Of a DNA stretch of 33,655 nucleotides, positions 13,221 to 33,621 are shown piece after piece (position 1 is the first letter of the stretch; the number at the start of each line of letters is the position of its first letter). Origin of the DNA: an uncultured Halomicronema sp. GTDB lineage: Bacteria > Cyanobacteriota > Cyanobacteriia > Phormidesmidales > Phormidesmidaceae. The stretch spans positions 1-33,655 of the forward strand of contig CALCCA010000133.1 in the NCBI GenBank assembly GCA_937899725.1. The letters are read 5' to 3'. Made by a program: the position numbers and the translations under genes. The notes under the pieces were generated by a model. That model searched no databases. It saw only the letters and a program-made list of their open reading frames with translations, and had not been told where the DNA came from.

Positions 13221-14078
13221 CTATAACGTAGGCAGGCGAAGCGATCTGAACCCATATTTCTGGCCAATCCGCGCTAATTCGAAGAGGTATTTGCCATAGA
13301 CGTTGAGATGCCCATATCGGGTGGGCCAGATCGCTTTGATGTCTTCATCGCTAATCGACAATTCCTCATGCTTGAGTTGTCGGAGTACCTGCTCGATATA
13401 AACCGTGTTCCAAACGATGATCGCGTTCGTGACCCAGTTCAAGCAGCCCACTTGGTGGCGCAATTCCTCATCTTTCTGACTCCGCAACTTACCTTGATTC
13501 GCCAAAAACAGATGCGAGCGGAGACTATGGAGCGCCTCCCCCTTGTTGAGCTGACGATTGAGCCGCCGCCGATTCGCCTCATCGGCGTACCACCGCAGAA
13601 TATGAATCGTTTTGATCAGTTTGCTGTACTCCTGAAGTGAGCGCATGAGGGGATGCTTGCGCGGAAATGCCTGGAGCTTCTGAAGCATGAGCGAAGCTGT
13701 CACCCAGTCCAGCTTCATCGAGCCAGCTAAGCGCAACATCTCATCCCAGTCATCGATAATTCGCGCCGTCTGGATCAGGTCTGAAATATGGGCTTTGAGT
13801 TGAGGATACAGCTCCATCTTGACGTTGACTGTGCGGTAAAGCTTTTGGTCAGCCAAGTCCCGAATGCGGGGCGAAAACCGAAGACCCAGAAGGTCGAATA
13901 AGGCAAAGATCAGCTCCGTATAGCCTGCGGTATCAGTGGTGTGCTCAACGATCGGGAGTTCCGTCTCGTTATTGAGAATCGCGTCGAGCACGTAAGTCGC
14001 ATCTCTCACGGTTGCCAGAATCGGTTTCGAGCCATATTGAGAGAACTGGTCGCTCGTCCAGCTATAAAGGTAGCCTGA
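13221..14078 (-). pseudogene. tnpA: Tn3-family transposase (tnpA), C-terminal remnant
   Basis: About 285 residues of the DDE domain of a Tn3-type transposase, roughly the last third of a protein that normally has about 950-1000 residues. The frame opens after a stop at 14079-14081 and reads LYSWTSDQFSQYGSKPILAT, then NNETELPIVEHTTDTAGYTE (including a catalytic Asp) and ADQKLYRTVNVK. The likely catalytic Glu is in LNKGEALHSLR, and the end is RSLRLPTL. An internal ATG at 14009 is not the true start. The whole N-terminal and middle part is absent, and the DNA just upstream does not continue the family pattern, so the copy cannot transpose by itself. It is flanked on its 3' side by a candidate terminal repeat. 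Confidence 0.85.
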
Positions 14079-16139: not shown

Positions 16140-17426
16140 TTACGTGTTCATCCGTTCATAAATCGCAGAAGTTGAGGGTGAGTAGCGGGTCAGATAGTTG
16201 AAGATCCAAAACTTGATGCAGGAATCAATGAAGACGGGCACGGTGGCAATAAACCCATTGATGAAAATTTTGCTTTCAGGAATGCCGAAATGTCCGAGGA
16301 TGCTTTCTAAAAACACTTCCCAGCCTTCTGCTGAGTGGAAACCGACGAAGATGTCAGTGATCAAAATAAAGAGAAACACCTTCATCGGATCCCGCAGATT
16401 AAGAAAGGTGCGATTAGAGACGGCTCTGATCAGATTAACCTGTCGTCTGCCGACGAGCACCAACCCCACAAAAACCACAAAGGCAATCACATCGGCCAGC
16501 AAATTTTTTAAGCCGTTGAGTTCACTTTCTCTCGCTTCGCGCCAGATATCGAAGGCTGATTCTTGCAAATATGCCTGCCTGATTTCATCATTCATTTCGT
16601 CGTAGTAGCCCAGCAGCGTGGCGACTTCGAGCTTTTCTTTGGCAAAGAGATATTCGCGGGCAAACTCTTCTTGAATTTCCTCACTCAGACTGATTTCGGT
16701 GGGATTGACGTTACTATAGCTGCCCATCAGGGGCTCAAAGAGCAGGTTGCGGGTCAGAATTTGAATCGAGAGAGGAATGATCAGCAGCACCGCCAGCCAG
16801 CGCAGGGCCACACGATTTTGCTGGCGCTGTAGTCGCAGTTGACCGATGAGCTGCTGCTCGTAATCACTCTCTGTTTCTTTGTTGGGCGATCGCAGGCGGG
16901 GCAAAAAAGACTCGCGCGGGCGATCTCGATCGGCGGCCAACATGGGCGGGTCGAGGGTGACCTCTTTGACCGGCATCGATTCTACAGCGGGCATTGGAGT
17001 GTCTAAGGCAGCGTCACCCGTCAAAAAAGTAAGGGTGTTCCCGGCAGTGCGATATTTGGCCACCACCGATTCGATGAATTCTAGCTGGGCCAGCACCGGC
17101 TCGCGATCGCGCTGCACTTCATCCTCAGATGCATCCGGCTTGGCCTCAACGGGCGGCGCCGTGGCGGCGGTGTCGAATAAAAAGCTATTGGCTTTGAACT
17201 GGGTCAGGTTGAAGCGAATTTTGAGGAGCTGGCGATCGCGCAGGCTAGCAGCATAGTCGGCGACGGTTTTGCTTTTATCGGGCGCGTCGGTAATTTTCTG
17301 ACCGTCAAACAGTTCGACTTCTAACTTTTGAATCGTTAACGCCCCCTCGTAGGCTGCTTCTAAAGCTTTTCGACGTCTTTGGGTGAACCAAGCAAAAACT
17401 TGGTTAGAAGCATTACGAAATTCCAT
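16140..17426 (-). CDS. pxcA: Proton extrusion protein PxcA (CemA/CotA family)
   Basis: A 428-residue inner-membrane protein of the PxcA/CemA family, required in cyanobacteria for light-driven, Na+-dependent proton extrusion and pH homeostasis and tied to inorganic carbon uptake (family knowledge). Start: ATG 17426, because AGGAAGG lies just upstream; a frame start at 17504 is rejected. The soluble N-terminal region (about 1-210) is rich in charged residues. Four membrane segments follow: WLAVLLIIPLSIQILT, NLLADVIAFVVFVGLVLVG, MKVFLFILITDIFVGF and INGFIATVPVFIDSCIKFWI. Family hallmarks are FVGFHSAEGWE, the FIATVPVFIDS segment and the C-terminal LTRYSPSTSAIYERMN. It looks intact although decayed genes lie next to it. 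Confidence 0.92.
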   Translation of the reverse strand: MEFRNASNQVFAWFTQRRRKALEAAYEGALTIQKLEVELFDGQKITDAPDKSKTVADYAASLRDRQLLKIRFNLTQFKANSFLFDTAATAPPVEAKPDASEDEVQRDREPVLAQLEFIESVVAKYRTAGNTLTFLTGDAALDTPMPAVESMPVKEVTLDPPMLAADRDRPRESFLPRLRSPNKETESDYEQQLIGQLRLQRQQNRVALRWLAVLLIIPLSIQILTRNLLFEPLMGSYSNVNPTEISLSEEIQEEFAREYLFAKEKLEVATLLGYYDEMNDEIRQAYLQESAFDIWREARESELNGLKNLLADVIAFVVFVGLVLVGRRQVNLIRAVSNRTFLNLRDPMKVFLFILITDIFVGFHSAEGWEVFLESILGHFGIPESKIFINGFIATVPVFIDSCIKFWIFNYLTRYSPSTSAIYERMNT

Positions 17427-17546
17427 ATCCTTCCTGCGAGAAAGTCGACCCAGGCAATTGCCCTCAAATATAAGGGCTCGGGCTCGGTTCTGAACGTTGG
17501 TCAACCCCGGTGACCGCCAGAAGGTGATTTTTTCTTGTCACGGTAA

Positions 17547-20467: not shown

Positions 20468-20606
20468 TATTGAGACTTTTAGAATGTATTGGCACCGATT
20501 TAGTCTGTGGCGAAAAGGGATGGTGGGGTGCGGGTGCGATCGCTGAGCATGTCGCACGGCTCATCATCACCCTGTAAACACGATGGTTCTTCCGAAGTCA
20601 GCAGAT

Positions 20607-20999
20607 CTATTCCGTTGTGTCTAGCTCAGAGTTTGCTGATTCAGCGTTCAGCAGTTCACGAACTTTTTGGAGCAGCTTTTTCATCAAAAATGGCTTGCTG
20701 AAAATTGTTATGTCAAACAAACGAAATACTTGCTGGTCAATCGGCTCAAGCTCCCGAGCTGTCACGACAACAATGGGCAAAGCGCTCCCTTGTTGTTGTA
20801 TTTCTCTCAAGATCTCCATCCCATCCTTGCCGGGTAGCCCTAAATCTAGCAGCAAGAGATCAAAATTTTCTGCCAGCACCTTCTCCAAAACCGCATTGCC
20901 GTTTTCGGCTACGTCGGTCATAAATCCTGAGCGTTTAAGGCCTTTTTCGATAAAAGCTGCAATTTTCGGCTCATCTTCTGCGATCAAAATGCGACTCAT
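20607..20999 (-). CDS. Stand-alone response-regulator receiver (CheY-like)
   Basis: A 130-residue single receiver domain. Start: ATG 20999 (GAGAG upstream), which aligns the protein with its neighbour; an earlier frame start at 21032 is unlikely. Key residues are present: acidic pair in IAEDE, phospho-acceptor Asp52 in LLLLDLGLPG, Thr80 in VVVTA and Lys102 in FSKPF. It aligns without gaps through residue 104 to the receiver of the OmpR-type regulator at 21140-21811. The usual G-D-YL before the Lys has become LFDITIF, and no DNA-binding domain follows. This suggests duplication of the regulator followed by loss of the output domain. It may act as a phosphate sink or protein-protein switch for the adjacent kinase (inference). 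Confidence 0.85.
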   Translation of the reverse strand: MSRILIAEDEPKIAAFIEKGLKRSGFMTDVAENGNAVLEKVLAENFDLLLLDLGLPGKDGMEILREIQQQGSALPIVVVTARELEPIDQQVFRLFDITIFSKPFLMKKLLQKVRELLNAESANSELDTTE

Positions 21000-21139
21000 A
21001 CTCTCTGATAGGGTAATGCGTACTACAGACAAGCAACCCTATGCTGATAAATTCTCCGCTTAATAAAAATTTACGGGTTGCTTCTCTACAGTAAAAATGG
21101 CTCAGTTAAGGCCAGCATTGATTGCAGATGAAAGTTTTC

Positions 21140-21811
21140 TCATGGGCGGAGACGATAGCCCATGCCTCTAACCGTTTCAATCAGGCCATCCCCGAACTTT
21201 TTGCGCAAATATCCCACATAAACATCAACAATATTAGAGCCGGGCGCATAGTCATAGCCCCAAACCGTGTCCAACAGTTGCTCACGACTCATGACTTGAT
21301 TAGGGTGGCGCAAAAACGTTTCCGCCAGGGTAAACTCACGAGCTGAGAGATCAATTATTTGACCCTCGACCTGAAGCCGCCGCGTCCGCAAATCAAGCAC
21401 TAAAGGCCCGACTGCTAGCATATTGCTCTGGCTCTCATGGGCCGCCGTCACCACTGTTCGCAGCCGCGCCCGCACCCGTACCAGCAGCTCTTCGAAGCGA
21501 AAGGGTTTGGTCATATAATCATCGGCCCCCCGCTCAAAGCCGCTGATTTTGTCTTGAATATCGTCCCGTGCTGTCAAAATTATGATCGGGGCTAAAAACC
21601 CCTGGCCCCGCAGGTCTTCAAGCAATTCCAGGCCATCGCGGCCTGGAATTCCCAGATCTAAAATCATCAAATCGATTTGACCATCTAAAGAGATTGCTGA
21701 CGCTTCTTCACTGTTACCTGCCACCGAAATCGTGAAGCCATTGGAGACTAATCCTTTTTTCACAAAGGCGGCAATTCGCACTTCATCCTCCACAACCAGA
21801 ATGTGAGTCAT
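21140..21811 (-). CDS. OmpR/PhoB-type response regulator
   Basis: A 223-residue DNA-binding regulator. Receiver domain (1-115): VVEDE, Asp52 in LMILDLGIPGRDG, Thr80 in IILTARDD, Lys102 in GADDYMTKPF. C-terminal winged helix (about 130-223): LDLRTRRLQVEGQIIDLSAR, then EFTLAETFLRHPNQVMSREQ, recognition helix near NIVDVYVGYLRKKFG, and the ending ETVRGMGYRLRP, all typical of the OmpR family. The start codon overlaps the stop of the kinase gene by one base (TAATG), so the two are translationally coupled. It should be phosphorylated by that kinase; targets are unknown. Confidence 0.92.
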   Translation of the reverse strand: MTHILVVEDEVRIAAFVKKGLVSNGFTISVAGNSEEASAISLDGQIDLMILDLGIPGRDGLELLEDLRGQGFLAPIIILTARDDIQDKISGFERGADDYMTKPFRFEELLVRVRARLRTVVTAAHESQSNMLAVGPLVLDLRTRRLQVEGQIIDLSAREFTLAETFLRHPNQVMSREQLLDTVWGYDYAPGSNIVDVYVGYLRKKFGDGLIETVRGMGYRLRP

Positions 21812-23313
21812 TAGCTCACCATCCTGACCTGGGGAGCCACCGGGGCTAAGCGCTCGATCGGCACAATCAAATTGAAGGTGGAGCCCACATTGACTTGACT
21901 GCTGAGTTCAATATGGCCACCATGGGCTTCGGCAATCGTTTTGACGATCGCCAGTCCTAAGCCTGCCCCTTCTGACCGGCGATAGGTATTAGCCACTCGG
22001 GCAAAGCGATCAAAAATTCGGGTTTGGTCGGCCAAAGAAATGCCCTCGCCCGTGTCGCGCACCCAAAACCGAACGTGACCATTAATACGCTCAACGCCCA
22101 GCTCAATCACATCGTTGGGGAAGGTATGCTCCACAGCATTTTGCGCCAAGTTCACCAGGGCCCCCGTCAGCCACTGACGATCAGCCACAAACTTGCCCGA
22201 CCAGCGAACGCTCAGTTGCCAGTCGCGATCGCCCAGCGGCTGAATTTTGGCAAACACCTCGGGCGTAAACGCGCTCGCCTGCAGCGTTTCTAATTGCAAA
22301 AAGTCAGGCCGCTCTGCCTTGGCTAAGAGCAACAAATCATTCACGAATCGTCCCATTCGCGCTAACTCATCCATGACCAAGGCTAGCGTTTTCTGCTGCT
22401 CTTGAGGGTCATCATCCATCAGTTCTAAATGACCTTGAATGATAGTCAACGGGGTGCGGAGTTCATGACTGGCATCGTTAATGAAGCTGCGCTGTGTATC
22501 AAAAGCCTTTTGCACCCGATCCATCATGGTGTTAAAGGTTGTAGCCAAGTCGGCGAGTTCGCCTGACCCATGAATCTCTAACCGCTCCGACAGATTCGTC
22601 TCATTGATGTCTTTAGCTGTTTTGGCCAGCTGTTGCACTGGGCGCAGCAGTTGATAACTGACTAGCCAAGCCAGCAAAAATGACACCCCCACGACGCCTC
22701 CAGCGACTTGGGCAAAAATGTAAACACCTTCTAGGGCCTCAGCCCGTTCTCCGGCTGACAGGTGCGCGGCGATAAAGACCCCCATCGGCACGTCGTTGAC
22801 CTCTAATACGTGGGTCTTGTATAAAACATTGCCGATTGCTGGCTCGCCGGTCGGCACGTTCGCTTCCACCGGCTCTTGCAAATTTGCCCACTCCTGAGCC
22901 AACTCAGAATCAACCAGCGCCGTCGGCAAGATCCGCGGACTCGACTGATAAAATTCACCCCTGAGCGTCACGATGTGAAAATTGTCATCTTCGGGCAAAT
23001 CATCTTCCAGATACGTCTCAATAAACTCCAGCAGCGCCTCCTGGGTTTCGGGGCTGTCAACATTCCAATCGCGATAGGATTGCTGAAATTCTTCGAGTTC
23101 TTCTTGCAGATCGGCTCTTACCCGTTCATCAACCGCTGAGAATAAGAAATAACGGAAGAGGGGCACCGCTGTGGCTACCACTCCCAACATCGTCACGGCG
23201 TAAACCAGCAGAATGCGAGTGCGGGTTTCGCGTCTAATCTTTTTGAGCCAGTGACGGAGCGACCATAAGGGTAGGCTCTTTGACGCGAGTGGGAGCAGCA
23301 TAGAACTTCTCAT
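21811..23313 (-). CDS. Membrane sensor histidine kinase with HAMP domain
   Basis: A 500-residue membrane kinase, first gene of a two-component operon with the OmpR-type regulator. It has two membrane segments (RILLVYAVTMLGVVATAVPL; VYIFAQVAGGVVGVSFLLAW) enclosing an acidic periplasmic sensor region of about 140 residues (EELEEFQQSYRDWNVDSPET, IETYLEDDLPEDDNFHIVTL). Then come HAMP (LLRPVQQLAKTAKDINETNL), HisKA with FINDASHELRTPLTIIQGHL (His about 283), and HATPase with NLAQNAVEHT, RDTGEGI, FDRFARV and GAGLGLAIV. The sensed signal is unknown; the sensor's strong negative charge would suit a cation (speculation). Start uncertain: in-frame ATGs at 23376, 23358, 23313 and 23301; the last has GAGAAG upstream. 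Confidence 0.9.
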   Translation of the reverse strand: MRSSMLLPLASKSLPLWSLRHWLKKIRRETRTRILLVYAVTMLGVVATAVPLFRYFLFSAVDERVRADLQEELEEFQQSYRDWNVDSPETQEALLEFIETYLEDDLPEDDNFHIVTLRGEFYQSSPRILPTALVDSELAQEWANLQEPVEANVPTGEPAIGNVLYKTHVLEVNDVPMGVFIAAHLSAGERAEALEGVYIFAQVAGGVVGVSFLLAWLVSYQLLRPVQQLAKTAKDINETNLSERLEIHGSGELADLATTFNTMMDRVQKAFDTQRSFINDASHELRTPLTIIQGHLELMDDDPQEQQKTLALVMDELARMGRFVNDLLLLAKAERPDFLQLETLQASAFTPEVFAKIQPLGDRDWQLSVRWSGKFVADRQWLTGALVNLAQNAVEHTFPNDVIELGVERINGHVRFWVRDTGEGISLADQTRIFDRFARVANTYRRSEGAGLGLAIVKTIAEAHGGHIELSSQVNVGSTFNLIVPIERLAPVAPQVRMVS

Positions 23314-23519
23314 ACACAAACCGATACAGGGGGCTAACGATGTGGAAGTGTGAGTCATGCCCGGAATGATGGCCATCTCTCATCGGACTAACGCATAGCC
23401 CCTGGCATTTCCTTGCGCGCAGCGTGGCCAGAGGGCGTATTGCCGGAGAGATTTGCACTCGGTTTCCCCAAAACCAGGGATTAGGGGCCAAAAACGCAGG
23501 CAATTGCTTGAGTTCTGCC

Positions 23520-23741
23520 TCAAAGTCTTTGAAGCTTCTTCAGGTGGGTGATCAGATGTCCTGAGGCATTAAAAGGTTCCTCAAGAGACTGGCCAGCGAT
23601 CTCGAAGGCGACACGTAAAGGTGACGCCTGTCGGCAACCGATGATCACCCCTGCCCCGAGCAGTACAAAAGATTCAGCCCCAGGCGTTGCTGCGCTCTCA
23701 ACTAGCCGCAGCGGCAGCAATTTGTTCTATTCGTGCCATAG
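23520..23741 (-). other. Possible broken small gene
   Basis: A minus-strand frame (ending at TGA 23520) reads GAESFVLLGAGVIIGCRQAS, then FEIAGQSLEEPFNASGHLIT, with no ATG of its own. An ATG at 23741 in another frame reads MARIEQIAAAAAS and then stops. A third frame continues beyond 23520 with FKDFEAELKQLPAFLAPNPW. These could be pieces of one frameshifted gene, but I recognise no family and the case is weak. Confidence 0.25.
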
Positions 23742-24076
23742 TGACTCGATTCAATCGTAAGTATAGATCTCCGCAATTTTAACTAAGGAAAAGCCCGATT
23801 TTTCTAAGAATCTTCTCATCAAAGATTAATGAGCCTTCATGAAGTGGGTCTCACAAAAACTTCATCTTTTCTTTAAAGAAGGACTGCAGAGTAGAAATAT
23901 CGAACGATAACCGTCCCTACTCCCAGGCTACACAAACCAATCGTTGGGGCATCACATCAGTTGCGCTTCGTTACTAAACCCGACTTTGTGGCCCTGTTCT
24001 GGGTTGTCGATTATCACCCACCTGTGTTCCCACCGTTCAATTTTGCTCCTTCCACACTCACTAAGGGACTTACGTG
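23742..24076. other. AT-rich leader upstream of the glycan cluster
   Basis: There is no gene in this stretch. It is distinctly AT-rich from about 23755 to 23880 and probably carries the promoter of the glycosyltransferase operon. TTCATGAA and ATGAAG/CTTCAT palindromes occur at 23836-23868. I cannot point to a specific -35/-10 pair. Confidence 0.35.
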
Positions 24077-25279
24077 ATGAGGTTAATGGTCTATTCCCAC
24101 GATGCGTTCGGATTAGGCAATATCCGACGCATGGTCGCCATCTGTGACTACTTGCTCAAAGCCATTCCTAACGTCTCGATTTTAGTGGTTTCAGGTTCAC
24201 CCGCTCTGCATCAGCTCCGACTGCCTGATGGGCTCGACTACATTAAACTGCCTTGTCTGGGCCGCGATGCCCAGGGCAAGATGGGGGTTAAGTTCCTCCG
24301 AACTGAGCTGACCGACACGCTCAAACTCCGCAGCGAGCTGATTCGCACTGCGGCCACGAACTTTCAGCCTGACGCCCTGCTCGTCGACAAAAAGCCCAAT
24401 GGCCTCTGGAAAGAGCTGCAGCCCACCCTAGACTATTTGCAGCAGCACTCGCCCCAGACTCGGCTCATCCTGCTGCTGCGCGATATTCTCGACAGTCCGG
24501 CTGTGACGATCGCCCAGTGGCAGCGTGAAAACTACTACACCCTGACCACCACCCGCTACGACCAAGTGTGGATTGTCGGCAGCCCCCATGTTTTTGATGC
24601 GCCCAGGATGTATGAGTTTTCGCCCGAGCTGCAGGCCAAGACCCGATTTATGGGCTACATTCGCCGGGGTCAGGGGCAACGCTCAGCGGCGGCGGTGCGG
24701 CGATCGCTGAATGTCACTGCCGCTGAGCGGTTGATATTGGTCACACCGGGCGGCGGCGGTGATGGGTTTCGCTTGGCCAATACCTACCTGGATGCCAGCG
24801 CCGCGATCGTGTCTGATCAGCCTTTAATCAGTCTCATTGTCGGCGGCCCAGAGATGCCGGCGGCGCAAAAGCGGCACCTGCGGCAGCGCATTGAGTCGCA
24901 GCCATACCTGCACTGGTTGGAATTTACCGATGATCTGGCCAGCTATATCACGGCTGCCGATTTAGTCGTCTCGATGGGCGGCTACAACACCATCGGCGAA
25001 ATTTTGTCACTGCAGCGACGCGCGATCGTGGTACCCCGCATTGACCCCGTCGAAGAGCAGTGGATTCGGGCTCGGCGGATGGCCGCATTAGGACTGTTCA
25101 CCACGATCCATCCCGATCAGCTCACGGTGCCTCATCTGACTCAAACTCTGAGCCAAGAACTGCGAGCCCACTTGCCTGCCCCCGGTTATCTACTCGATTT
25201 CAATGCCCTGCCCCACATTACGGCCGCACTGTTGGGGCTCGTCCATGCGCCGCCGCGCCAGCCCGAACTGGTTGCCTAG
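24077..25279 (+). CDS. MurG-like (COG4671-type) glycosyltransferase 1
   Basis: A 400-residue GT-B-fold glycosyltransferase, first gene of the glycan cluster. Start: ATG 24077, 8 bases after AAGGGA; GTG 24074 is also possible. The N-terminal domain opens MRLMVYSHDAFGLGNIRRM, the 'YS-D--G-GN-RR' pattern of predicted glycosyltransferases related to MurG and COG4671. The nucleotide-sugar-binding half has LILVTPGGGGDG and then ITAADLVVSMGGYNTIGEIL, the 'D--VS-GG-NT--E' acceptor loop typical of this fold. RAIVVPRIDPVEEQWIRARR follows. No membrane segment, so it probably works at the inner face of the membrane. Donor and acceptor cannot be predicted. A second member of the same family is at 26647. 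Confidence 0.8.
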   Translation: MRLMVYSHDAFGLGNIRRMVAICDYLLKAIPNVSILVVSGSPALHQLRLPDGLDYIKLPCLGRDAQGKMGVKFLRTELTDTLKLRSELIRTAATNFQPDALLVDKKPNGLWKELQPTLDYLQQHSPQTRLILLLRDILDSPAVTIAQWQRENYYTLTTTRYDQVWIVGSPHVFDAPRMYEFSPELQAKTRFMGYIRRGQGQRSAAAVRRSLNVTAAERLILVTPGGGGDGFRLANTYLDASAAIVSDQPLISLIVGGPEMPAAQKRHLRQRIESQPYLHWLEFTDDLASYITAADLVVSMGGYNTIGEILSLQRRAIVVPRIDPVEEQWIRARRMAALGLFTTIHPDQLTVPHLTQTLSQELRAHLPAPGYLLDFNALPHITAALLGLVHAPPRQPELVA

Positions 25280-25333
25280 CGCATTGGAGCTACAGGGCTA
25301 TGTTTTCCGTTTGCTGTTCATTTCCTCACTGCT

Positions 25334-26650
25334 ATGACTGCTCAAAAAACTGTGATTGGGTACTTGCTCAAAACCTTTCCCAAGCTTTCTGAAACGTTTA
25401 TCTTGAACGAAATTTTGGAGCTCGAGCGACAAGGGCTCAACCTGCACATTTTCTCGCTGCGCCGCCCCGTCGATCGCCGCCAGCATCCGGCTTTGAGCCA
25501 ACTGCAAGCACCCGTCACCTATATTCCTTCTCTACTGCCTGAGTGGCATCATGACGAAGAAACTCAACTGATCAAAAACCAGGTGGCCTGGGGGCAGCGT
25601 GACCCTAATCAGCTGATGGCAGCCCTGCAGTTTTACGGCGATCGCCCCGAAACTCGCCGCTTTAACGAGTTTTTGCAGGGTTGTTATCTCGCCACCGAAT
25701 TAGAGCGCTTGGGCATTGAGCATCTGCATGTTCACTTTGCCAACATTCCCGCTGCTACCGCCGAGATGGCCCAGCGCTTGAACGGTGTGCCCTTTAGCAT
25801 CACGGCCCATGCCAAAGACATTTATCTGACCGAGCCTGTCGCCCTCGATCGCCGCCTGCGCAGCGCCGAATTTGTGCTGACCTGCACCGATTACAATCGT
25901 CGCTATTTAGCGTCGGTTTCCACTTCTGACACGCCGATTCACCTGTCCTATCACGGCATCGACCTGTCGCGGTTTACTCGGCCACCGGGTGGGTCACCCG
26001 TCGCGGCGGCGGCCCCGGCAGCTCGACCACTGCAGCTGCTCTCGGTTGGCCGGTTTTGCGAAAAGAAAGGCTTTGCCTACTTGCTAGAAGCTTGCCAGCA
26101 GCTGCGGGTCGCGGGAGTGAACTTTCACTGCAACCTAGTGGGCTATGGGCCGTTGCAAGCCGCCCTAGAAGCGCAAATTCAAGCTTTGGAGCTGGCGGAG
26201 CGCGTCACCCTGGTCGGCCAGCTCACCCAAAACCAGGTGATCGAGCAATACCGCCAGGCCGATGTCTTTGTGCTGCCCTGTTTGGTGACCGACGACGGCG
26301 ATCGCGACGGCATTCCCAACGTGTTGTTAGAAGCGATGGCCTTAGGCGTACCGGTGGTATCTACCGCGATTTCGGGCATTACCGAGCTGGTGCAGTCTGG
26401 GCAAAACGGCCTACTCATTCCCGAAAAAGATGTCGCCGCGCTCACGCTAGCCCTGCGACAACTCACCCAGGATGCCGCGCTCCGTGAGCGACTCGGCCAA
26501 GCAGGGAGTCGCACCGTACACCAAAATTTCACCCTTGGGCACAACGTGGGTCAAGTCAAAGACTGGCTGCTGCACGCCTTGCGCTCCCCCGCTCGGGAGC
26601 CGCTCCGGCCCACCACCCTCTCCCCCACTTTGGAGGCGGCTATCCGATGA
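25334..26650 (+). CDS. Glycosyltransferase family 4 protein
   Basis: A 438-residue GT4 enzyme (GT-B fold). The N-terminus VIGYLLKTFPKLSETFILNE is the signature of the GT4 subgroup that includes WcaL-like exopolysaccharide enzymes. Middle motifs are HVHFANIPAATAEM and SITAHAKDIY. The donor-binding domain has LLSVGRFCEKKGFAYLLEA, LVGYGPL, and the E-x7-E motif region DGIPNVLLEAMALGVPVVST followed by GITELVQSGQNGLLIP. No signal peptide or membrane helix. It is 54 bases after the first GT, and its stop overlaps the next start (ATGA), so translation is coupled. Retaining transfer of a sugar onto a growing glycan is expected; the linkage is unknown. Confidence 0.9.
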   Translation: MTAQKTVIGYLLKTFPKLSETFILNEILELERQGLNLHIFSLRRPVDRRQHPALSQLQAPVTYIPSLLPEWHHDEETQLIKNQVAWGQRDPNQLMAALQFYGDRPETRRFNEFLQGCYLATELERLGIEHLHVHFANIPAATAEMAQRLNGVPFSITAHAKDIYLTEPVALDRRLRSAEFVLTCTDYNRRYLASVSTSDTPIHLSYHGIDLSRFTRPPGGSPVAAAAPAARPLQLLSVGRFCEKKGFAYLLEACQQLRVAGVNFHCNLVGYGPLQAALEAQIQALELAERVTLVGQLTQNQVIEQYRQADVFVLPCLVTDDGDRDGIPNVLLEAMALGVPVVSTAISGITELVQSGQNGLLIPEKDVAALTLALRQLTQDAALRERLGQAGSRTVHQNFTLGHNVGQVKDWLLHALRSPAREPLRPTTLSPTLEAAIR

Positions 26651-27885
26651 AACGCTTACTGTTTTACTGCCAGCACATTCTCGGCATCGGCCATCTGATG
26701 CGCAGCATGGAAATCGTCAAAGGCCTCACTGCTGATTTCCAGGTGTGCTTTATCAACGGCGGCGAAGCGATCGCCGATTTCCCTATTCCCCCTGGTGTCG
26801 AGGTCGTGCAGTTGCCGCCCCTCAAAACCGACGATGAATTTTCAGAACTGCACCTGCCGCCGGGGTTTAACAGTTTACCGGCGGTCTTCAGCGCTCGCTG
26901 TCAGCAGATGACCACCGTGGTCGAGCAGTTTCAGCCCGACATTTTTATGGTGGAGCTGTTTCCCTTTGGCCGACGGCGCTTTTCTGCCGAGTTGATTCCG
27001 GTGATTGAGGCCGCCCGCGATCGCGGTGCGCACATCGTTTCTAGCCTGCGTGACATCGTGGTGACGAAACAAGACCAGGCTCGCCACGAAGCCAAAATCT
27101 GCAAGCTGATCAACCAATATTTTGACTTGCTGCTGATTCACGGCGATCCGGAGTTTATGCCGCTAGAGCGCAGCTTTTCCCGCGTGGCTGACCTGCGCTG
27201 CGCCGTCCATTACACCGGCTATGTGGTGCAGGCGGCGCCCCCCCAGCCGCTAGCCACCGAGGGCGATCGCCGCGCTCAACCCAGGGGCTCCTCACCAACG
27301 ATTCTGGTCTCCGTCGGCGGGGGCCGCTTTGGGCATCAGCTACTGCACTGCGTCGCCCAGGCCAGTCCTTATCTGCAGGCACAGATTCCCCATCATATTC
27401 ACCTGTTTGCTGGGCCGTTTTCTCCTGACAGCGTTTATGAACCCCTGCGAGAGCTGGCGCAAGCCTACTCAAACCTGACCGTTCAACGCTATACGCCTGA
27501 CCTGGTCAGCTATATGCAGCAGGCCGATCTCTCGATCAACATGGGCGGCTACAACACCACGCTTAACGTACTCAAAACCGGCACCCGTTCCATGCTGCTG
27601 CCCTTCACTGGCAACGGTGACCAAGAGCAAATCATCCGGGCCGAACGGCTCGAAGCTTTGGGCGTCGTGTCGATTATTCAGCCCGCCGACCTGCAGCCGC
27701 AGCGGCTAGCGCAGCGCATAGTCGCGCATCTGCAAACCCAGCCCACTCCCCTGCAGTTTGATTTGAACGGGGTGGCCCAAACGGCCCAGATTTTGCGTGA
27801 CTGGGTGGCTGCCTCGCCAGTAGCCGAACGGCGCGCGCGCGCCAGCCTCGCCACCGCCACCTCAGTCTGCACATCTTTCCCCTAA
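26647..27885 (+). CDS. MurG-like (COG4671-type) glycosyltransferase 2
   Basis: A 412-residue relative of the first cluster gene. The N-terminus is MKRLLFYCQHILGIGHLMRS, again an 'F--H-LG-GH--R' substrate loop. The second half has TILVSVGGGRFGHQLLHCVA and LSINMGGYNTTLNVLKTGTR, sharing MGGYNT with the first GT. MLLPFTGNGDQEQIIRAERL and LEALGVVSIIQP follow. The last 25 residues are low complexity (Ala/Arg-rich) and may be a frame extension. It starts inside the stop of the GT4 gene (ATGA), so both are made together. Two such enzymes flanking a GT4 suggests consecutive additions to one acceptor, but this is inference. Confidence 0.8.
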   Translation: MKRLLFYCQHILGIGHLMRSMEIVKGLTADFQVCFINGGEAIADFPIPPGVEVVQLPPLKTDDEFSELHLPPGFNSLPAVFSARCQQMTTVVEQFQPDIFMVELFPFGRRRFSAELIPVIEAARDRGAHIVSSLRDIVVTKQDQARHEAKICKLINQYFDLLLIHGDPEFMPLERSFSRVADLRCAVHYTGYVVQAAPPQPLATEGDRRAQPRGSSPTILVSVGGGRFGHQLLHCVAQASPYLQAQIPHHIHLFAGPFSPDSVYEPLRELAQAYSNLTVQRYTPDLVSYMQQADLSINMGGYNTTLNVLKTGTRSMLLPFTGNGDQEQIIRAERLEALGVVSIIQPADLQPQRLAQRIVAHLQTQPTPLQFDLNGVAQTAQILRDWVAASPVAERRARASLATATSVCTSFP

Positions 27886-27911
27886 ACATTCCCCTAACTG
27901 GACTAACCCCC

Positions 27912-29111
27912 ATGACGACCCAACGTATTTGCATCACCACCTTAGAATTTCCGCCTGATGTGGGTGGCGTCGGTGAATCCGTCGCTCGCATTGCTCGCAT
28001 GATGCAGGCGATCGGCTACGAAGTGCATGTCGCGGTGTTTCATTCCAAACAGCGTAAAGCTGATACCCTGCGGCGATCGCAGTGCCTGTCTAAAGTTCAA
28101 GACGGCCTCTATGTGCATCGTCTATACCCCGCCATTCGCTCTGAAAACCCCATCGTGCAGGACTTCCTCAGCGAAGTCTATTTCCTGTTAGAGCAGCTGC
28201 ATCAGCAATTTCGGTTCAGCTTGTTTCACGGCTTTTTTATCAACGAAACGGGCTTTTTGACGACCCTGCTGGCCAAAGAGCTGGGCATCCCCGTGATCAA
28301 CAGCGTGCGGGGCAGCGACCTGCATAAGCACGTGTTTAACCCCAAGCAGCATGGTCAGGTGACGTGGACTTTGGCAAATTCTGACTGGGTCACCTGCGTC
28401 AGCGATGCCCTGAAAGCGCGAGCCTGTGTGCTGGTGCCCGAACTGCGCTCCCGTGTCACCGCCTTTTGGAACTCGATTCAACCGCTGAATCTGGCCCACC
28501 TGCCCACCGCCACGCACCACGATCGCCTGCAGGGCACCGTCATTGGCTCAGTCGGCCGGTTTCGCGATAAAAAAGGGCTGGAATATTTGCTCGATGCGGG
28601 GGCTGAGCTGGCTCGCCAGCAGACCATCACCTTGTTGCTGGTTGGCGATTACGCCGATCGCGAACGCACCTATTGGCAGCAGCAGGTGGCAGACAGCCCC
28701 CTGCGCGATCGCGTCATTCTCACCGGTTTGGTTGACCGCCGCGAAGCCCTCGCCTACCTGCCCTACATCGATATCTTCGCCGTACCCTCACTGCATGACG
28801 GCTGCCCCAACGCCCTGTTAGAAGCCATGCTGGCCGAACGGGCGATCGTCGGTACCGATGTCGATGCCATTGGCGAAATTTTGCGCGATCGCAGCAATGC
28901 CCTCGTCGTGCCTCCCGGCAATAGTCAGGCGCTGGCCTATGCCCTCTGGCAACTGCTGCAATCGCCGGCCCTGCGCCAAAAACTGGGTCAGCAAGCCCGC
29001 GACACCGTCCTGACTCAACTTGCCCCCAACGTCGAGCAAAAAAATTGGGCTCAAGTTTACCAGCGGGTTTTGCAGCCTGAGTCTGAGCCCGTTTTTGCGC
29101 TGTCGGCCTAA
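27912..29111 (+). CDS. Glycosyltransferase family 4 protein
   Basis: A 399-residue GT4 enzyme. The N-terminus ICITTLEFPPDVGGVGESVA is the glycine-rich acceptor-side loop of GT4 ('T-EFPP--GG-G'). INSVRGSDLHKHVFNP lies in the cleft. The donor side has IGSVGRFRDKKGLEYLLDAG, LLLVGDYADRERTYW and the E-x7-E region HDGCPNALLEAMLAERAIVG. It is 26 bases downstream of MurG-like gene 2. No transmembrane segment. A different subgroup from the other GT4 in the cluster, judging by the N-terminal loop. Substrate unknown. Confidence 0.9.
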   Translation: MTTQRICITTLEFPPDVGGVGESVARIARMMQAIGYEVHVAVFHSKQRKADTLRRSQCLSKVQDGLYVHRLYPAIRSENPIVQDFLSEVYFLLEQLHQQFRFSLFHGFFINETGFLTTLLAKELGIPVINSVRGSDLHKHVFNPKQHGQVTWTLANSDWVTCVSDALKARACVLVPELRSRVTAFWNSIQPLNLAHLPTATHHDRLQGTVIGSVGRFRDKKGLEYLLDAGAELARQQTITLLLVGDYADRERTYWQQQVADSPLRDRVILTGLVDRREALAYLPYIDIFAVPSLHDGCPNALLEAMLAERAIVGTDVDAIGEILRDRSNALVVPPGNSQALAYALWQLLQSPALRQKLGQQARDTVLTQLAPNVEQKNWAQVYQRVLQPESEPVFALSA

Positions 29112-29236
29112 GGCCTTGGGGCCGAACTGCTCACTTCTGCTTCGGGCGTGGGAGGTCGGCCCTCCGTTTTTCGCCCCAACGCCATTGCCCCGATCGAAAA
29201 TGCTCTGCTCACTGTCAACCTATCATCCAATTTGCT

Positions 29237-30286
29237 ATGCATCCCAACATCACCCTCATCATCTCGCCACGCGAGCGCTTTAGCCACACTCGCCAAGCGC
29301 TCGAAAGCCTCTATGCCAACACCGAGCTGCCCTTTCAGCTGGTTTATGTAGACGGCGGCTCGCCGCGCCAGACCCGCGACTATCTCCAGCAGCAATCCAT
29401 TGAGCGCGGCTTTGAGCTGGTGCGCACCGAAAGCTACCTGGCCCCTAACCAGGCTCGCAATCTCGGCCTAGCCAAAGCCACCACTGAATACGTCGTCTTC
29501 ATCGATAACGACGTCGAAGTGGCCCCCGGCTGGCTGCGTCACCTCGTCGCCTGCGCGGATGAGACTCAAGCGACTGCTGTCTGTCCGCTCACCTGCATTG
29601 GCCAACCCCTCGGCCACAAAATTCACCTGGCCGGGGGCGAAGCCCGCATTGTGTTGCAGGTCAAAGGGGACGATCGCCAGCGCCGAGTCCATGAAAAGCA
29701 TTACTTCGTCAATCGCGCCGTAGCCGACGTACAAGACCAGCTGCAGCGGCGTCAGTGCGAATTTGCCGAATTTCACTGTGTGCTCGTGCGGCGATCGCTG
29801 TTTGACACCATCGGTCCGCTGGATGAAAACCTGCTGAGCACCCGCGAACATATCGACTTTTGCCTCACTCTGGCGCGGGTCGGCGGCACCGTTTACTGCG
29901 AGCCCGCTGCCGTCGTCACCTATGTACCAGCCGTACTGTGGCAGCCCTCTGACCTGACCTTCTTTATGCTGCGCTGGAGTGACGAATGGGAAATTCGCAG
30001 CCTCAAATATTTCCGCAAAAAGTGGGACTTACCCAAAAAAGATAAGTACTTCCGCAAGCGCTATCGCCGTCTGGGCTACCGGCGTCATCAGGCGTTTATC
30101 AAACCCTGGGTCAAACAGCTGCTCTGGGGTCAAGCGCCCCCCGCCGTCATGCGCCCCCTGATTGCCGTCGATCACCAACTCAACCGCTGGCTCAGCGATC
30201 GCTACTATCGTCAGCATCCAGACCGCGTCAAATTGCCCAAACGCCCGGTCGTCCCAGCCAGCCCAGCCCACGATCTGGTGGCGTAG
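29237..30286 (+). CDS. Glycosyltransferase family 2 protein
   Basis: A 349-residue GT2 (GT-A fold) enzyme. The N-terminus ITLIISPRERFSHTRQALES leads to LVYVDGGSPRQT (nucleotide site) and EYVVFIDNDVEVAPGWLRHL, where DND fills the role of the metal-binding DXD. The base region is probably LLSTREHIDFCLTLARVGG (the 'ED/EH-D' position). The C-terminal 90 residues are very basic (KYFRKKWDLPKKDKYFRKRY) with no transmembrane helices; the basic tail may bind the membrane surface or an anionic acceptor. No ribosome site is obvious at ATG 29237, and the upstream spacer is 125 bases. Confidence 0.88.
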   Translation: MHPNITLIISPRERFSHTRQALESLYANTELPFQLVYVDGGSPRQTRDYLQQQSIERGFELVRTESYLAPNQARNLGLAKATTEYVVFIDNDVEVAPGWLRHLVACADETQATAVCPLTCIGQPLGHKIHLAGGEARIVLQVKGDDRQRRVHEKHYFVNRAVADVQDQLQRRQCEFAEFHCVLVRRSLFDTIGPLDENLLSTREHIDFCLTLARVGGTVYCEPAAVVTYVPAVLWQPSDLTFFMLRWSDEWEIRSLKYFRKKWDLPKKDKYFRKRYRRLGYRRHQAFIKPWVKQLLWGQAPPAVMRPLIAVDHQLNRWLSDRYYRQHPDRVKLPKRPVVPASPAHDLVA

Positions 30287-30314
30287 GGTGCGTCATCGCA
30301 GCGCGTGACGCACC
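30287..30314. repeat. Palindromic repeat right after the GT2 stop
   Basis: The perfect 9-bp arms GGTGCGTCA (30287-30295) and TGACGCACC (30306-30314) surround a 10-base loop, starting at the base after the stop codon. Palindromes of the 'GGTGCGT-ACGCACC' type are frequent in cyanobacterial intergenic DNA. It may act as a transcript end or stability element, but no U-tract follows. Confidence 0.6.
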
Positions 30315-30511
30315 GCAGCTCATCTGCTGCTGGTGCATTAGGCCAATGCCACAACACTCCCGACATTACCCTGCGATTTAGAAATCAGTCAAAGCTATGC
30401 CCGCCATAGCTTCTAGACTATGCCTACGCGGATTAACCGCATCGCCTGCGGCACCTCCCTCTGTTAAGGCTACTGCTTATACAGAAGTCTCTAGTTTGTC
30501 ATTTTTGGCGA

Positions 30512-30576
30512 TCTATCCCCCTAAATCCCCCAAGTTTGGGGGACTTGAACTTCGATCTCCCCGCAGAATTGGGGGA
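30512..30576. repeat. Interspersed CCCCCTAAATCCCCC-type repeat
   Basis: ATCCCCCTAAATCCCCCAAG is followed by the hairpin TCCCCCAA (30526-30533) / TTGGGGGA (30536-30543) and a second G-run, ATTGGGGGAC, near 30570. This motif is a well-known type of dispersed repeat in cyanobacterial genomes (family knowledge). Only one copy is in this window. Confidence 0.55.
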
Positions 30577-30683
30577 CAAATGTAGCGTTTTAAGGAAGCC
30601 ACCGAAATGTCTATACTTCGGAGCCTCAACAAGGAGAAGCTGATAAAAATCTGCAGAAGAATTTGCTCTGATTGAGACAGAAG

Positions 30684-30745
30684 TTCCGGTTCCTCTCCTA
30701 AGCCCTCTAGGCAGGCTGCGCCAAGGGTAAGGAGAGGTGGCCGGT
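30684..30745. repeat. Dispersed repeat, inverted copy of the 222-376 element
   Basis: The reverse complement of this stretch reads CCTTGGCGCAGCCTGCCTAG and then AGGGCTTAGGAGAGGAACCGG, matching 246-290 almost base for base. It forms its own stem (CCTCTCCTAAGCCCT against AGGGTAAGGAGAGG). It lies between the GT2 and ABC exporter genes; no coding sequence is present anywhere in 30315-30804. Confidence 0.65.
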
Positions 30746-30804
30746 AAAACTGCTACTGCAGATGGGCTAACGCCGCAATACCCCTATACCGTTGTTTTAT
30801 CACC

Positions 30805-32643
30805 ATGCCTAAACAAAAAGCTCAAACTCTGGGGGCCGCGTTGCCCAGCCTAGGCAAAATCCTGCGCCATTTTTGGCCCTATCTGCGGCAGCAGCAACAG
30901 CTGATTGGCACCGCCTTTGTTGCCCTCCTGGCCGAAACAGCCATGCGCCTGCTAGAACCCTGGCCCCTCAAACTGATGTTCGATCGCGTCATTCTGCCGG
31001 GGTTTCAGGCTGACTCGGCGGTTTTGCCAGGGCTGTGGAACCTGTCGCCCATGGCCCTGCTTACGGCATTAGCGATCGCCCTGGTGCTAATTGCCGCCTT
31101 GCGCGGCATGTTTGCCTATGTCAGCGCCGTCAACATGGCCGTCGCGGCGACCCGCATCATGACCGACATTCGCAGCACGCTGTACAGTCACCTGCAGCGG
31201 CTGTCCCTCTCCTTTCACAACCAGGCTAAAAGTGGTGACCTGATTACCCGCGTCACCTACGACATTGAGCGCCTGCGAGAGGTCACCGTGGTCGCTGTGC
31301 TGCCGTTGCTCGCCAATACGCTCACCCTGCTGGGCATGGTCGGCGTCATGTTCTTTTTGAACTGGGAGCTGGCCCTAATCGCGATCGCGATTTTGCCCCT
31401 GTTTTTGTTCACGACCCGCCATATGGGCGGCAAAATTCAGACCGTGGCCCGACGACAACGCAAGCGTGAAGGCGCGATGGCGGCCTCAGCAGCGGAGGCG
31501 ATCGGGGCCATGCAGGTGGTGCAGGCACTGTCGCTAGAATCCATGCTGGAAAAATCCTTTGCCAAGCAAAACCAAAAGAGCCTGAAAGAAAGCGCCGAAG
31601 CGCAACGCCTGCGAGCCGGGCAGGAACGGTTAGTCGAGATTCTCGTGGCCGTGGCGACGGCCCTCGTGCTCTGGCGCGGCGTGCAGCTCACCATTCAGGG
31701 GGCAGTTACCCCCGGCGACCTGCTCGTGTTCATCACTTACCTCAAAGTCGCCTTTAAGCCCATGCGGCAGCTGGCAAAATACACCGGGCAAATCGCCAAA
31801 GCCACCGCCTCGGGCGAACGCATCATTAGCCTGATGGAAATTCAACCCGACGTCCGTGACTGCCGGGGCGCGATCGCCGCGCCGCCCTTTCGCGGGGCCG
31901 TACAGTGCCAAAACGTCACCTTTGCCTACCGCCCCGAGCAGGGCATTTTGCGCAACCTGAGCTTTACCGTGCAGCCAGGAGAGCAGGTGGCGATCGTCGG
32001 CCCCTCCGGCAGTGGTAAATCAACCCTCGTGAGCCTGCTGCTGCGTCTCTACGACCCGATCGCTGGCGGCGTGCTGATCGACGGTCACGACCTGCGCGAA
32101 TATACCCTCGCCTCCCTGCGCCCCCAGATCAGCATCGTGCTGCAAGATAGCGTGCTCTTTGCCACCAGCGTCGGCGACAACATTGCCTACGGTAACCCTC
32201 ACGCTACCCCCGATGACATCGTGGCCGCCGCCCAGCTCGCTAATGCCCACGAGTTCATCATGGCCCTACCCGATGGCTACGACACCCCCCTTGGGGAACG
32301 CGGTGCGACCCTATCCGGCGGGCAGCGCCAGCGCCTCGCGATCGCCCGTGCCGCCGTCCGCAATGCCGCGATCGTCATTCTGGATGAACCCACTACCGGC
32401 CTCGATAACGCTAGTGAGCACCTCGTCACCGAGGCCCTCCAGCGCCTCACCCAAAATCGCACCACCTTCTGGATTTCTCACAACCTCCACACCGCCCAAG
32501 ACGCCGATCAAATCTTTTATCTCGAACAGGGCCAGCTACAAGAACGCGGCACCCACCCCGAACTCATGGCCCTCAACGGTCACTACGCTCGGCTCTATCG
32601 CCTGCAAGAAAATCAATCCGCCTTAGCCGTCGGCACTTCCTAG
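30805..32643 (+). CDS. ABC exporter, fused permease and ATPase (MsbA-like)
   Basis: A 612-residue half-transporter that should work as a homodimer. The N-terminal membrane domain (about 20-340) has about six helices (for example LLTALAIALVLIAALRGMFA and LPLLANTLTLLGMVGVMFFL). The ATPase domain (about 365-600) has Walker A GPSGSGKST (399-407), Q-loop SIVLQDSVLFATSV, signature LSGGQRQRLAIARA (from 503), Walker B VILDEP (from 524) and switch His in FWISHNLH. The type I exporter fold matches lipid, glycolipid and peptide exporters. Next to five glycosyltransferases it may flip or export the assembled glycan or a lipid-linked intermediate (inference). The 518-bp gap before it suggests it may have its own promoter. 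Confidence 0.9.
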   Translation: MPKQKAQTLGAALPSLGKILRHFWPYLRQQQQLIGTAFVALLAETAMRLLEPWPLKLMFDRVILPGFQADSAVLPGLWNLSPMALLTALAIALVLIAALRGMFAYVSAVNMAVAATRIMTDIRSTLYSHLQRLSLSFHNQAKSGDLITRVTYDIERLREVTVVAVLPLLANTLTLLGMVGVMFFLNWELALIAIAILPLFLFTTRHMGGKIQTVARRQRKREGAMAASAAEAIGAMQVVQALSLESMLEKSFAKQNQKSLKESAEAQRLRAGQERLVEILVAVATALVLWRGVQLTIQGAVTPGDLLVFITYLKVAFKPMRQLAKYTGQIAKATASGERIISLMEIQPDVRDCRGAIAAPPFRGAVQCQNVTFAYRPEQGILRNLSFTVQPGEQVAIVGPSGSGKSTLVSLLLRLYDPIAGGVLIDGHDLREYTLASLRPQISIVLQDSVLFATSVGDNIAYGNPHATPDDIVAAAQLANAHEFIMALPDGYDTPLGERGATLSGGQRQRLAIARAAVRNAAIVILDEPTTGLDNASEHLVTEALQRLTQNRTTFWISHNLHTAQDADQIFYLEQGQLQERGTHPELMALNGHYARLYRLQENQSALAVGTS

Positions 32644-32748
32644 CCTGAACCCTCGTCACTCTCCCTACCCTCACCCTTGGCTCCAGTGCTTCCTACCTTG
32701 CCCCCACCCGCTACCCGCTATTCCTCACCCGCTACCCTCCTCACTCCC

Positions 32749-33621
32749 ATGATTGCCCAACTCCGTTCCCCCTCCCCACCGTCAACCTTTCTCCCCGGCT
32801 ACGATTTCCCGCCCGTAGCTCCCACCCGCACCCGCGTAATTTTGCTGCGCCATGGTCGCAGCGATCGCAACGACGCTGGCTGCTATCAGGGCAGCAGCGA
32901 TGTCGGCCAGCTCACCCCCAGTGGCCTGGCCGCCTCCCAAGTGATGGGGCAATACCTGACCCGCTGCCCCATCCAGGCGGTTTACGTTAGCCCCCTCAGA
33001 CGAGCTAAAGATACCGCCGCTGCCCTTTTACCCCACCTCACGACCCCCACGCTCAAACGCGTGAGCACCCACAACCTGCTGCGTGAGATTAGCCTGCCGG
33101 CATGGGAAGGTTTGCGCTATGAAGACGTGCGATCGCACCAGGCAGCGGCCTACCACACCTGGCAAACCGCGCCTCACGAGTTTCAAATGCGGCCGGAACG
33201 GGGCGAGCCTTGTTACCCAGTGCATGACCTCTACCAACGCGCCCAGCAGTTTTGGCACACCACCCTGCCCCACCATCACGGTCAGACGATTCTTATCGTT
33301 AGTCATGGCGGCACCAACCAGGCGCTCATCAATACTGCGCTGCAGCGCTCCCCCCAAGACCATCACAGCCTACAGCAAACCCATAGCGGGCTCACCGTTT
33401 TTGATGTGGATGCCACCCCCCATCAGCCCGCTCAGCTGCACCTACTGAATCTCACCCTAGGCTCTGCCCCCAGCGCGATCGCTACGCCCCACCTGCCCAA
33501 ACTCAAAGCCGGCAAGCACGGCGTGAGGCTATTGCTTCTGCCCTATCAGCCCGGTCTCAGGCCCGACCCCGCTCTGGCCTCACTGCTGCGATCGACCACC
33601 ATTAGACTTTATCGGAAATAA
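32749..33621 (+). CDS. Histidine phosphatase family protein (phosphoglycerate mutase-like)
   Basis: A 290-residue protein with the RHG motif ILLRHGRSDRND (catalytic His about 35) and the second catalytic motif IVSHGGTNQAL (His about 186). YVSPLRRAKDTAAAL and LREISLPAWEGLRYED supply the conserved Arg and Glu, so the active site is complete. I chose ATG 32749; the frame opens at TTG 32677 but that extra part is Pro/Thr low complexity without a ribosome site. The C-terminal about 70 residues go beyond the usual domain. It is 105 bases after the ABC exporter. In a glycan cluster it could dephosphorylate a sugar phosphate or an inhibitory product, but the substrate is unknown. Confidence 0.85.
   Translation: MIAQLRSPSPPSTFLPGYDFPPVAPTRTRVILLRHGRSDRNDAGCYQGSSDVGQLTPSGLAASQVMGQYLTRCPIQAVYVSPLRRAKDTAAALLPHLTTPTLKRVSTHNLLREISLPAWEGLRYEDVRSHQAAAYHTWQTAPHEFQMRPERGEPCYPVHDLYQRAQQFWHTTLPHHHGQTILIVSHGGTNQALINTALQRSPQDHHSLQQTHSGLTVFDVDATPHQPAQLHLLNLTLGSAPSAIATPHLPKLKAGKHGVRLLLLPYQPGLRPDPALASLLRSTTIRLYRK

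Follow-up and report, generated by a model that had tools for sequence, protein, structure and literature searches.

A cyanobacterial histidine kinase, OmpR-type regulator and stand-alone receiver that may form a feedback module beside polysaccharide genes

The locus described here lies in a 33,655-nucleotide stretch of DNA from an uncultured Halomicronema sp. (hereafter, the window), the minus strand of which encodes between 20607 and 23376, in order of transcription, a sensor histidine kinase (HK, 521 aa), a response regulator (R, 223 aa) and a stand-alone receiver (S, 130 aa). Five glycosyltransferases and an MsbA-like ABC transporter are encoded divergently from the kinase. The features considered are the following.

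20607..20999, minus strand: S, stand-alone receiver, 130 aa (open reading frame, Pfam, alignment, AlphaFold2 model)
21021..21093, minus strand: predicted stem-loop in the presumed S leader, arms AAGCAACCC / GGGTTGCTT plus outer pairs (RNA fold)
21088..21093, minus strand: weak candidate for a −10 element, TACTGT, on the downstream side of the box (sequence)
21110..21139, minus strand: OmpR-style candidate operator box, GAAAACTTTCATCTGCAATCAATGCTGGCC, directly after the R stop codon (de novo motif, held-out score)
21140..21811, minus strand: R, OmpR/PhoB-type response regulator, 223 aa (open reading frame, domain search)
21811..23376, minus strand: HK, sensor histidine kinase with HAMP, HisKA and HATPase_c domains, 521 aa (open reading frame, domain search)
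23808..23841, plus strand: strong candidate box in the divergent HK/glycosyltransferase gap, oriented to the glycosyltransferase, 23.2 bits (motif scan)
23846..23865, plus strand: second, degenerate 11-bp-spaced copy, TCTCAC-N6-TTCAT (by eye)
24074..33621, plus strand: glycan cluster, the probable target: GT28-like, GT4, GT28-like, GT4, GT2, MsbA-like ABC transporter, histidine phosphatase (domain searches)

The HK and R genes share one base, at 21811, and the distance from the R stop codon to the S start is 140 bases if S begins at the ATG at 20999, or 107 if it begins at the alternative in-frame TTG at 21032 that opens the reading frame. Pfam finds a receiver and the winged helix of the OmpR/PhoB family in R (Response_reg and Trans_reg_C), which scores 184 bits against the PhoB family model, under the cut-off of 296 bits. 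In S it finds Response_reg alone (residues 4–114 of 130, E 6.6e-23), so that S is a single-domain, CheY-like response regulator, a receiver with no other domain. The AlphaFold2 model of S, obtained with five alignment rows, has a mean pLDDT of 89.8 and the strand and helix order of the usual receiver. By eye, the FATGUY motif is absent from the window S, which reads TARELEPIDQQVFRLFDITIFSKPF there. A consensus promoter and terminator scan of 20500–24200 gave no signal above shuffles, and a plasmid collection of 3110 records gave no match at ≥60% identity. Elsewhere in the window, an open reading frame at 13221–14009 (minus strand) matches the Tn3 transposase DDE domain and possibly belongs to a partial element, and 16140–17504 (minus strand) encodes a CemA-family protein with an N-terminal extension of more than 200 residues.

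Sequence comparison confirms S as a real gene. Its copy in genome G002 is 94% identical, with dN/dS of 0.027/0.135 by NG86 and 0.033/0.082 by YN00, that is, a ratio of 0.2 or 0.4, and because this constrained copy is accompanied by related trios in other genomes, S is not a chance open reading frame. The recurrence of the kinase-regulator-receiver trio in other cyanobacteria, which the first-pass annotation had offered as a check, was indeed found, at 42 loci. S-like matches were sought in 59 genomes including the window's own, of which 26 gave one at E 1e-20, and the kinase in 388 genomes of the class, of which 114 matched at E 1e-85; 20 neighbourhoods were taken from the S-like search and 80 kinase loci from the upper part of the matches listed. 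We defined a trio as an OmpR-type R followed on its own strand, after a gap of <800 bases, by a single-domain receiver, with a kinase no more than 400 bases away, and left L038 and L039, which are copies of other loci, out of the counts. On this definition, 42 of the 94 kinase-bearing cyanobacterial loci gathered are trios: the 80 kinase-led loci supplied 31, and the window or the receiver-led searches, which are biased towards finding S, the other 11; four more R-S pairs have no kinase in reach under the same rule. When the 100 kinase reading frames are ranked by score, the first 20 include 15 that belong to trios and the first 40 include 26; the whole set includes 42. They span at least six family codes (f1, f11, f15, f24, f26 and f31), with S reading frames of 112–154 aa (n = 42). 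A short S match (frame ≤200 aa, judged by eye) was counted in at least 47 genomes among the matches listed, weaker S matches being uncounted; every one of these 47 belongs to the 114 of 388 genomes that have the kinase. In one genome S lies directly behind HK and the R orthologue is on another contig, and a further 17 S-clade receivers stand outside complete trios, several of them lacking both kinase and R over the stretch covered. At L128 and L129 the kinase is convergent with S and overlaps its 3' end, and R and S remain together. Stand-alone receivers are common in cyanobacteria and two-component triads have been reported there without their routes being worked out (PMC9953108). A literature search covering the titles and abstract starts of the papers listed gave no account of the HK-R-S trio or of the box described below.

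The S and R receivers had been said to align without gaps to residue 104; the alignment is gap-free over 1–119, with Asp52, Thr80, Lys102, IAAF and DLGxPG in the same register, as claimed, and alignment and Pfam bear out that S kept the phospho-residues and lost the winged helix. The replacement of GADDYM by LFDITIF holds for the window S (RGADDYM, 94–100) and is not typical of the family: position 99 is aromatic (Tyr, Trp or Phe) in 36 of 42 S and Tyr in 25, the window having I99 and its clade having lost the switch Tyr. The further proposal that S derives from the neighbouring regulator stands in part, in that both belong to one receiver family, and fails as to a local copy. A quick tree of 160 receivers unites all 42 trio S with 17 of the 20 other single-domain receivers in a single clade (SH-aLRT 99) inside the R family. 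A second, careful tree, whose 86 rows comprise 36 of S type, 41 of R type (the C78 regulator among them) and 9 other receivers of the genome, was made after 25 long, redundant or outlying rows had been removed by name, among them the three single-domain receivers that the quick tree places outside the S clade, and the remainder thinned. It recovers the S clade at 100/100 and splits R and S from the other receivers at 100/99. A separate R clade is not rejected (p 0.74), and S may thus be sister to R or nested in it. Local duplication, with the window S and R and their G002 copies all in one group, is rejected by the AU test (p 0.00181). Tree placement, the check that had been suggested, therefore puts the S clade beside or within the R family, by an old duplication and not by a local copy, and the trees fit a single origin of S from an R-family receiver. 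Within its own genome, the best relative of S is the receiver of another OmpR regulator, C78:5010 (46%, 90 bits), and the neighbouring R comes second (40%, 79 bits). A second related kinase-OmpR pair lies at C78:3587-5360 of G000 (L248), its kinase 39% identical to HK and its receiver 46% to S.

The distance matrices of S and R correlate (Mantel r 0.69, against a maximum of 0.17 in 1000 permutations), as expected of long co-inheritance, and S, with a mean pairwise distance of 0.52 vs 0.33 for R, is the faster-evolving of the two. This faster rate and an eroded dimer face are what one would see if S were a decaying, functionless remnant of an R duplicate. Against that stand the dN/dS ratios relative to G002, an occurrence in no fewer than six family codes, the box in front of S and an active site complete in 41 of 42 S, and we give the idea hardly any credence.

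The kept and lost parts of S can be read directly from the alignments. All five active-site residues (the acidic pair, phospho-Asp, Thr/Ser and Lys) are present in the window S and in 41 of the 42 trio S, the sole exception being L229, which ends before the Lys. In OmpR, kinase specificity is set by alpha1 and the beta5-alpha5 loop (PMC2991266). Across alpha1, S is on average 0.54 identical to its own R (0.50 in the window), and P0001 compared with 12 other OmpR-type receivers, drawn from 20 receiver stretches of its own genome, gives a mean of 0.24 and a maximum of 43%. Locus-by-locus coevolution of alpha1 is weak, with same-locus identity of 0.537 vs 0.521 across loci (permutation 0.067, or 0.033 for variable positions), and the beta5-alpha5 loop of the window reads KPFLMKK in S vs KPFRFEE in R.

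The alpha4-beta5-alpha5 surface is the dimer face of the OmpR family (PMC2586830). Over this surface S and R are 39% identical (26% in the window), compared with 55% between other OmpR receivers and R. At six charged positions (88, 93, 97, 98, 112 and 116), chosen because R keeps nearly all of them, R retains 5–6, the genome's 12 other OmpR receivers retain 3–4, and S retains 0, 1, 2 or 3 in 9, 23, 6 and 4 cases, respectively, and so has at most half of these OmpR/PhoB dimer residues. D98 and R112, which we take to be the central pair of this charged network, occur together in 42/42 R and 6/42 S, the window S not among the latter. The S/R entropy ratio is 1.0–1.2 for alpha1, alpha2 and beta3, 2.0–2.2 for alpha3 and beta4, and 2.8–6.8 for alpha4, beta5 and alpha5, with the beta4-alpha4 and beta5-alpha5 loops also among the most relaxed parts of S relative to R. 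In absolute terms the two most variable elements of S are alpha4 (entropy 2.93), which ranks first, and alpha2 (2.39), which exceeds beta5 and alpha5. Taken together, the conserved active site and alpha1 and the relaxed alpha4-beta5-alpha5 suggest that phosphorylation and the kinase side were held about as in R and the dimer side was set free. Two homologous receivers encoded together could in principle form mixed dimers, through which S would inhibit R, but since S is largely without the dimer-face residues (0–3 of the six in 42/42 S, and the D98/R112 pair in just six) we consider competition by heterodimerisation highly improbable.

A different use of the phosphorylated form would be a CheY-like output, in which HK~P passes its phosphoryl group to S and the partner of S~P is some other protein, perhaps one of glycan export or pili, so that a rapid branch bypassing transcription runs parallel to R. 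The roles proposed for single-domain receivers are binding to other proteins and service as shuttles or sinks (PMC5964349); such an output agrees with the first of these, as it does with the common aromatic at 99 and the near-universal active site. The variability of alpha4, the 4.5–6.8-fold relaxation of beta5 and alpha5 relative to R (of tempered weight, given the absolutely more variable alpha2), the loss of the switch Tyr in the window clade and the glycan-related nature of the largest recurrent families in the flanks (which are short, with smaller families unnamed) argue against it, and we regard it as unlikely.

On comparing the R-S gaps, we saw TTCTCAT recurring after the R stop codon, and TTTCTCAT or its complement occurs in 20 of 42 gaps, at 2.16 per kb vs 0.16 in other intergenic sequence. 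An unsupervised motif fit on 40 gaps (two having been dropped as identical over 60 bases) yielded, de novo, the 30-base motif GAAaaTTCTCATcnannnTTcATnnn in 38 of them, the two gaps with no box being those of L042 and L185; its log-likelihood is 371.6 (40 starts) vs 92.7–100 in eight base-shuffled sets (12 starts each). The core pattern is TTCTCAT-N6-TTcAT with an 11-bp period, often with a third repeat, and the extended consensus, ATgAGAAaaTTCTCATcnannnTTcATnnncatcTTA, consists of 11-bp direct repeats, the first part being palindromic. Measured from the R stop codon, the box lies at position 0, directly behind it, in 14 gaps, and as far as 622 bases beyond it in others. With the window's clade removed from the weight matrix, and the full model supplying the sites for the remaining gaps, 11 of 11 held-out gaps scored above the 99th percentile of their own shuffles, the weaker copies including the window box (13.3 bits vs 10.8) and that of L170 (5.1 vs 4.8). 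The PHO box of PhoB/PhoP is described as 11-nt direct repeats with seven conserved and four less conserved positions (PMC4415409). The present box shares this layout, with at least two 11-nt direct repeats of seven conserved and four loose positions, a match of format only: it differs in sequence and is not known to be linked to phosphate. Such a PHO-box-like motif in R-S gaps is new here.

Downstream of the box, TAnnnT stands at −10 distance in 12 of 38 loci, compared with a mean of 4.3 in three comparison windows, and such an element is suggestive only. The stem-loop predicted for the window leader has an RNA fold z of −3.67 (coordinates hand-read off the dot-bracket), recurs in G002 with bases of the 3' arm changed, and has arms with a single occurrence in the genome. 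A conserved RNA hairpin is not a general feature of these gaps, for which the median z over 42 is −0.36, with 12/42 below −2. The RNA folds predicted for the R-S gaps of L176 and L192 are particularly stable (z −6.4 and −7.4).

Beyond the gaps, the box lies within 800 bases upstream of HK in 20/41 trios vs 7/183 control windows of the same loci (p 6.6e-12), a count independent of motif training, and its density in 75 non-cyanobacterial loci is 0.04 per kb. It also stands upstream of HK where no S was seen in a trio (14/37 HK+RR loci and 7/21 HK-only loci), and within 300 bases downstream of 10 of 40 response regulators outside complete trios. A repeat-period test upstream of HK was highest at period 11 (z 8.4), and, because many periods were raised relative to simple shuffles, we replaced it by the motif model. 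Twenty trios have a divergent GT28-family or UDP-sugar dehydrogenase (UGD) gene beyond HK, and in 18 of these, the window included, a box lies between the two, 16 times oriented to the glycan gene. A strict pattern drawn up after the window site at 23808 was known is, at ≤1 mismatch, unique to that site in the 7-Mb draft genome (its reversed control matches once) and does not match the weaker window box at 21139. A three-repeat pattern matched once elsewhere in the genome, vs 3 for its reversed control, and missed the window site, where the third repeat is spaced by 10. At L248, a scan of 2.7 kb gave no match to the box.

The S-clade genes outside complete trios carry the box upstream in 6 of 17 cases. 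Two of these (L124 and L198) are still behind R and cut by a contig end, and the others are among 12 not following R: L181, with S convergent to R; L205, with S directly behind HK; L185, with the box at 621 and S divergent from a second kinase that could own it; and L132, with a weak box of 11.4 bits. The other 11 show no box, the scan at L123 covering 76 bases. These scattered receivers, several with no kinase or R beside them, together with kinase specificity loosely matched per locus and the changed beta5-alpha5 loop of the window S, are what would be expected if S mainly served other kinases as a phosphate shuttle or hub, its place beside HK and R being partly historical. The presence of the kinase in all 47 listed short-S genomes, the OmpR-style box in the R-S gap and the correlated S and R distances point the other way, making this reading quite unlikely.

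As to output, GT28-like or UGD genes lie within 2.6 kb of the kinase in 26/42 trios, 13/37 HK+RR loci and 2/21 kinase-only loci (trio vs HK+RR, p 0.024). The HK-R-S system seems to control surface polysaccharide genes, and from the box we infer that R probably controls the glycan cluster of the window.

The reading we prefer, to which we give about an even chance, is of a single module of HK, R and S, conserved in cyanobacteria, in which R drives the glycan cluster and S, and S acts back on HK. HK would phosphorylate R; R~P would dimerise via its alpha4-beta5-alpha5 face, bind the PHO-box-like operators and turn on both the divergent glycosyltransferase and export cluster and S, the latter through a promoter of its own in the R-S gap. 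S, as an old duplicate of an R-family receiver that kept the phosphoacceptor site and kinase-facing alpha1 and shed the dimer face and DNA-binding domain, would probably act back on HK as phosphoryl sink, competitor or inhibitor, a negative feedback limiting or sharpening R~P output. Binding of the box by R, activation from it, phosphorylation of S by HK and the sign of the feedback are what we infer. The conserved phosphorylation site favours a sink or competition, although the data do not separate a sink from inhibition of HK. The module is favoured by the trios, the S clade, the active site, the likeness in alpha1, the loss of D98/R112 and the boxes, as well as by the kinase in all 47 listed short-S genomes and the genome with S directly behind HK. 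It is weakened by same-locus alpha1 likeness barely above cross-locus, the altered loop (a specificity determinant in OmpR) of the window S, the boxless gaps (2/40) and S-clade genes outside trios (11/17), the boxes behind non-trio regulators and upstream of HK without S in a trio, the aromatic at 99 in most S, which is compatible with an output role, and the place of the window R-S box among the weaker copies. The one-kinase, two-receiver idea of the first-pass annotation survives, now with another account of where S came from and with a regulatory link; the role of sink or competitor proposed there fits, and the new argument for it is the OmpR-style candidate operator ahead of S. More tentatively, and somewhat short of an even chance, the module would be a surface-polysaccharide switch of three parts, widespread in cyanobacteria, in which R, through an operator at or after its own stop codon, drives transcription of a pared-down version of its own receiver, which in turn drains the kinase they share or inhibits it.

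Among known systems, HepK/DevR of Anabaena pairs a kinase with a single-domain receiver in the control of a polysaccharide, and is not known to have an OmpR partner. Judged from the parts of the published accounts used here, the closest analogue is Osp/CckA/CtrA. Osp of Rhodobacter sphaeroides is a single-domain receiver that directly inhibits the kinase CckA in feedback on CckA/ChpT/CtrA, and its gene is activated by CtrA, with a CtrA-site-like sequence ahead of it in most species examined (PMC9430884). Common to Osp and to S would be a single-domain receiver under the output regulator and negative feedback onto the kinase, and the corresponding regulator site ahead of the gene would be the candidate box in 38/40 gaps, which also occurs at HK and glycan genes. 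Osp works on a hybrid kinase in a phosphorelay, whereas HK is HAMP-type and R OmpR-type; unlike Osp, S is encoded beside HK and R and is an R-family paralogue with a full phosphorylation site. CheA/CheY1/CheY2 of Sinorhizobium meliloti, a one-kinase, two-regulator phosphate sink reconstituted in vitro (PMC4214558), likewise has one kinase and two receivers, one the proposed sink for the other, but its kinase is a chemotaxis kinase, and in HK-R-S the control of the sink gene by the regulator would be a further, presumed step. RfpA/RfpC/RfpB and RcaE/RcaF/RcaC also combine a cyanobacterial kinase, a small CheY-like receiver and a DNA-binding regulator, but with phytochrome-class photosensors and multi-receiver regulators in light acclimation, whereas the trio has a HAMP-type kinase and one receiver per protein (PMC4390838). 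XssS/XssR/XssQ control sulfated exopolysaccharide in Synechocystis 6803; XssS and XssR resemble HK and R in lying beside a polysaccharide cluster, and are found near such clusters in many cyanobacteria, but the third partner, XssQ, is a STAND activator and not a single-domain receiver (PMC8205485).

The candidate operator offers a handle on who controls cyanobacterial polysaccharide clusters. Few cyanobacterial stand-alone receivers have, to our knowledge, an assigned partner, and the S family gains here a kinase, a sister regulator, a candidate DNA operator and a likely output, glycan assembly. If the module is as proposed, it would add to Osp an independent example of a receiver that is controlled by a regulator and feeds back on its kinase, and the three-part switch, if true, would be a genetically encoded, self-installed phosphate sink giving a threshold or pulse in polysaccharide production.
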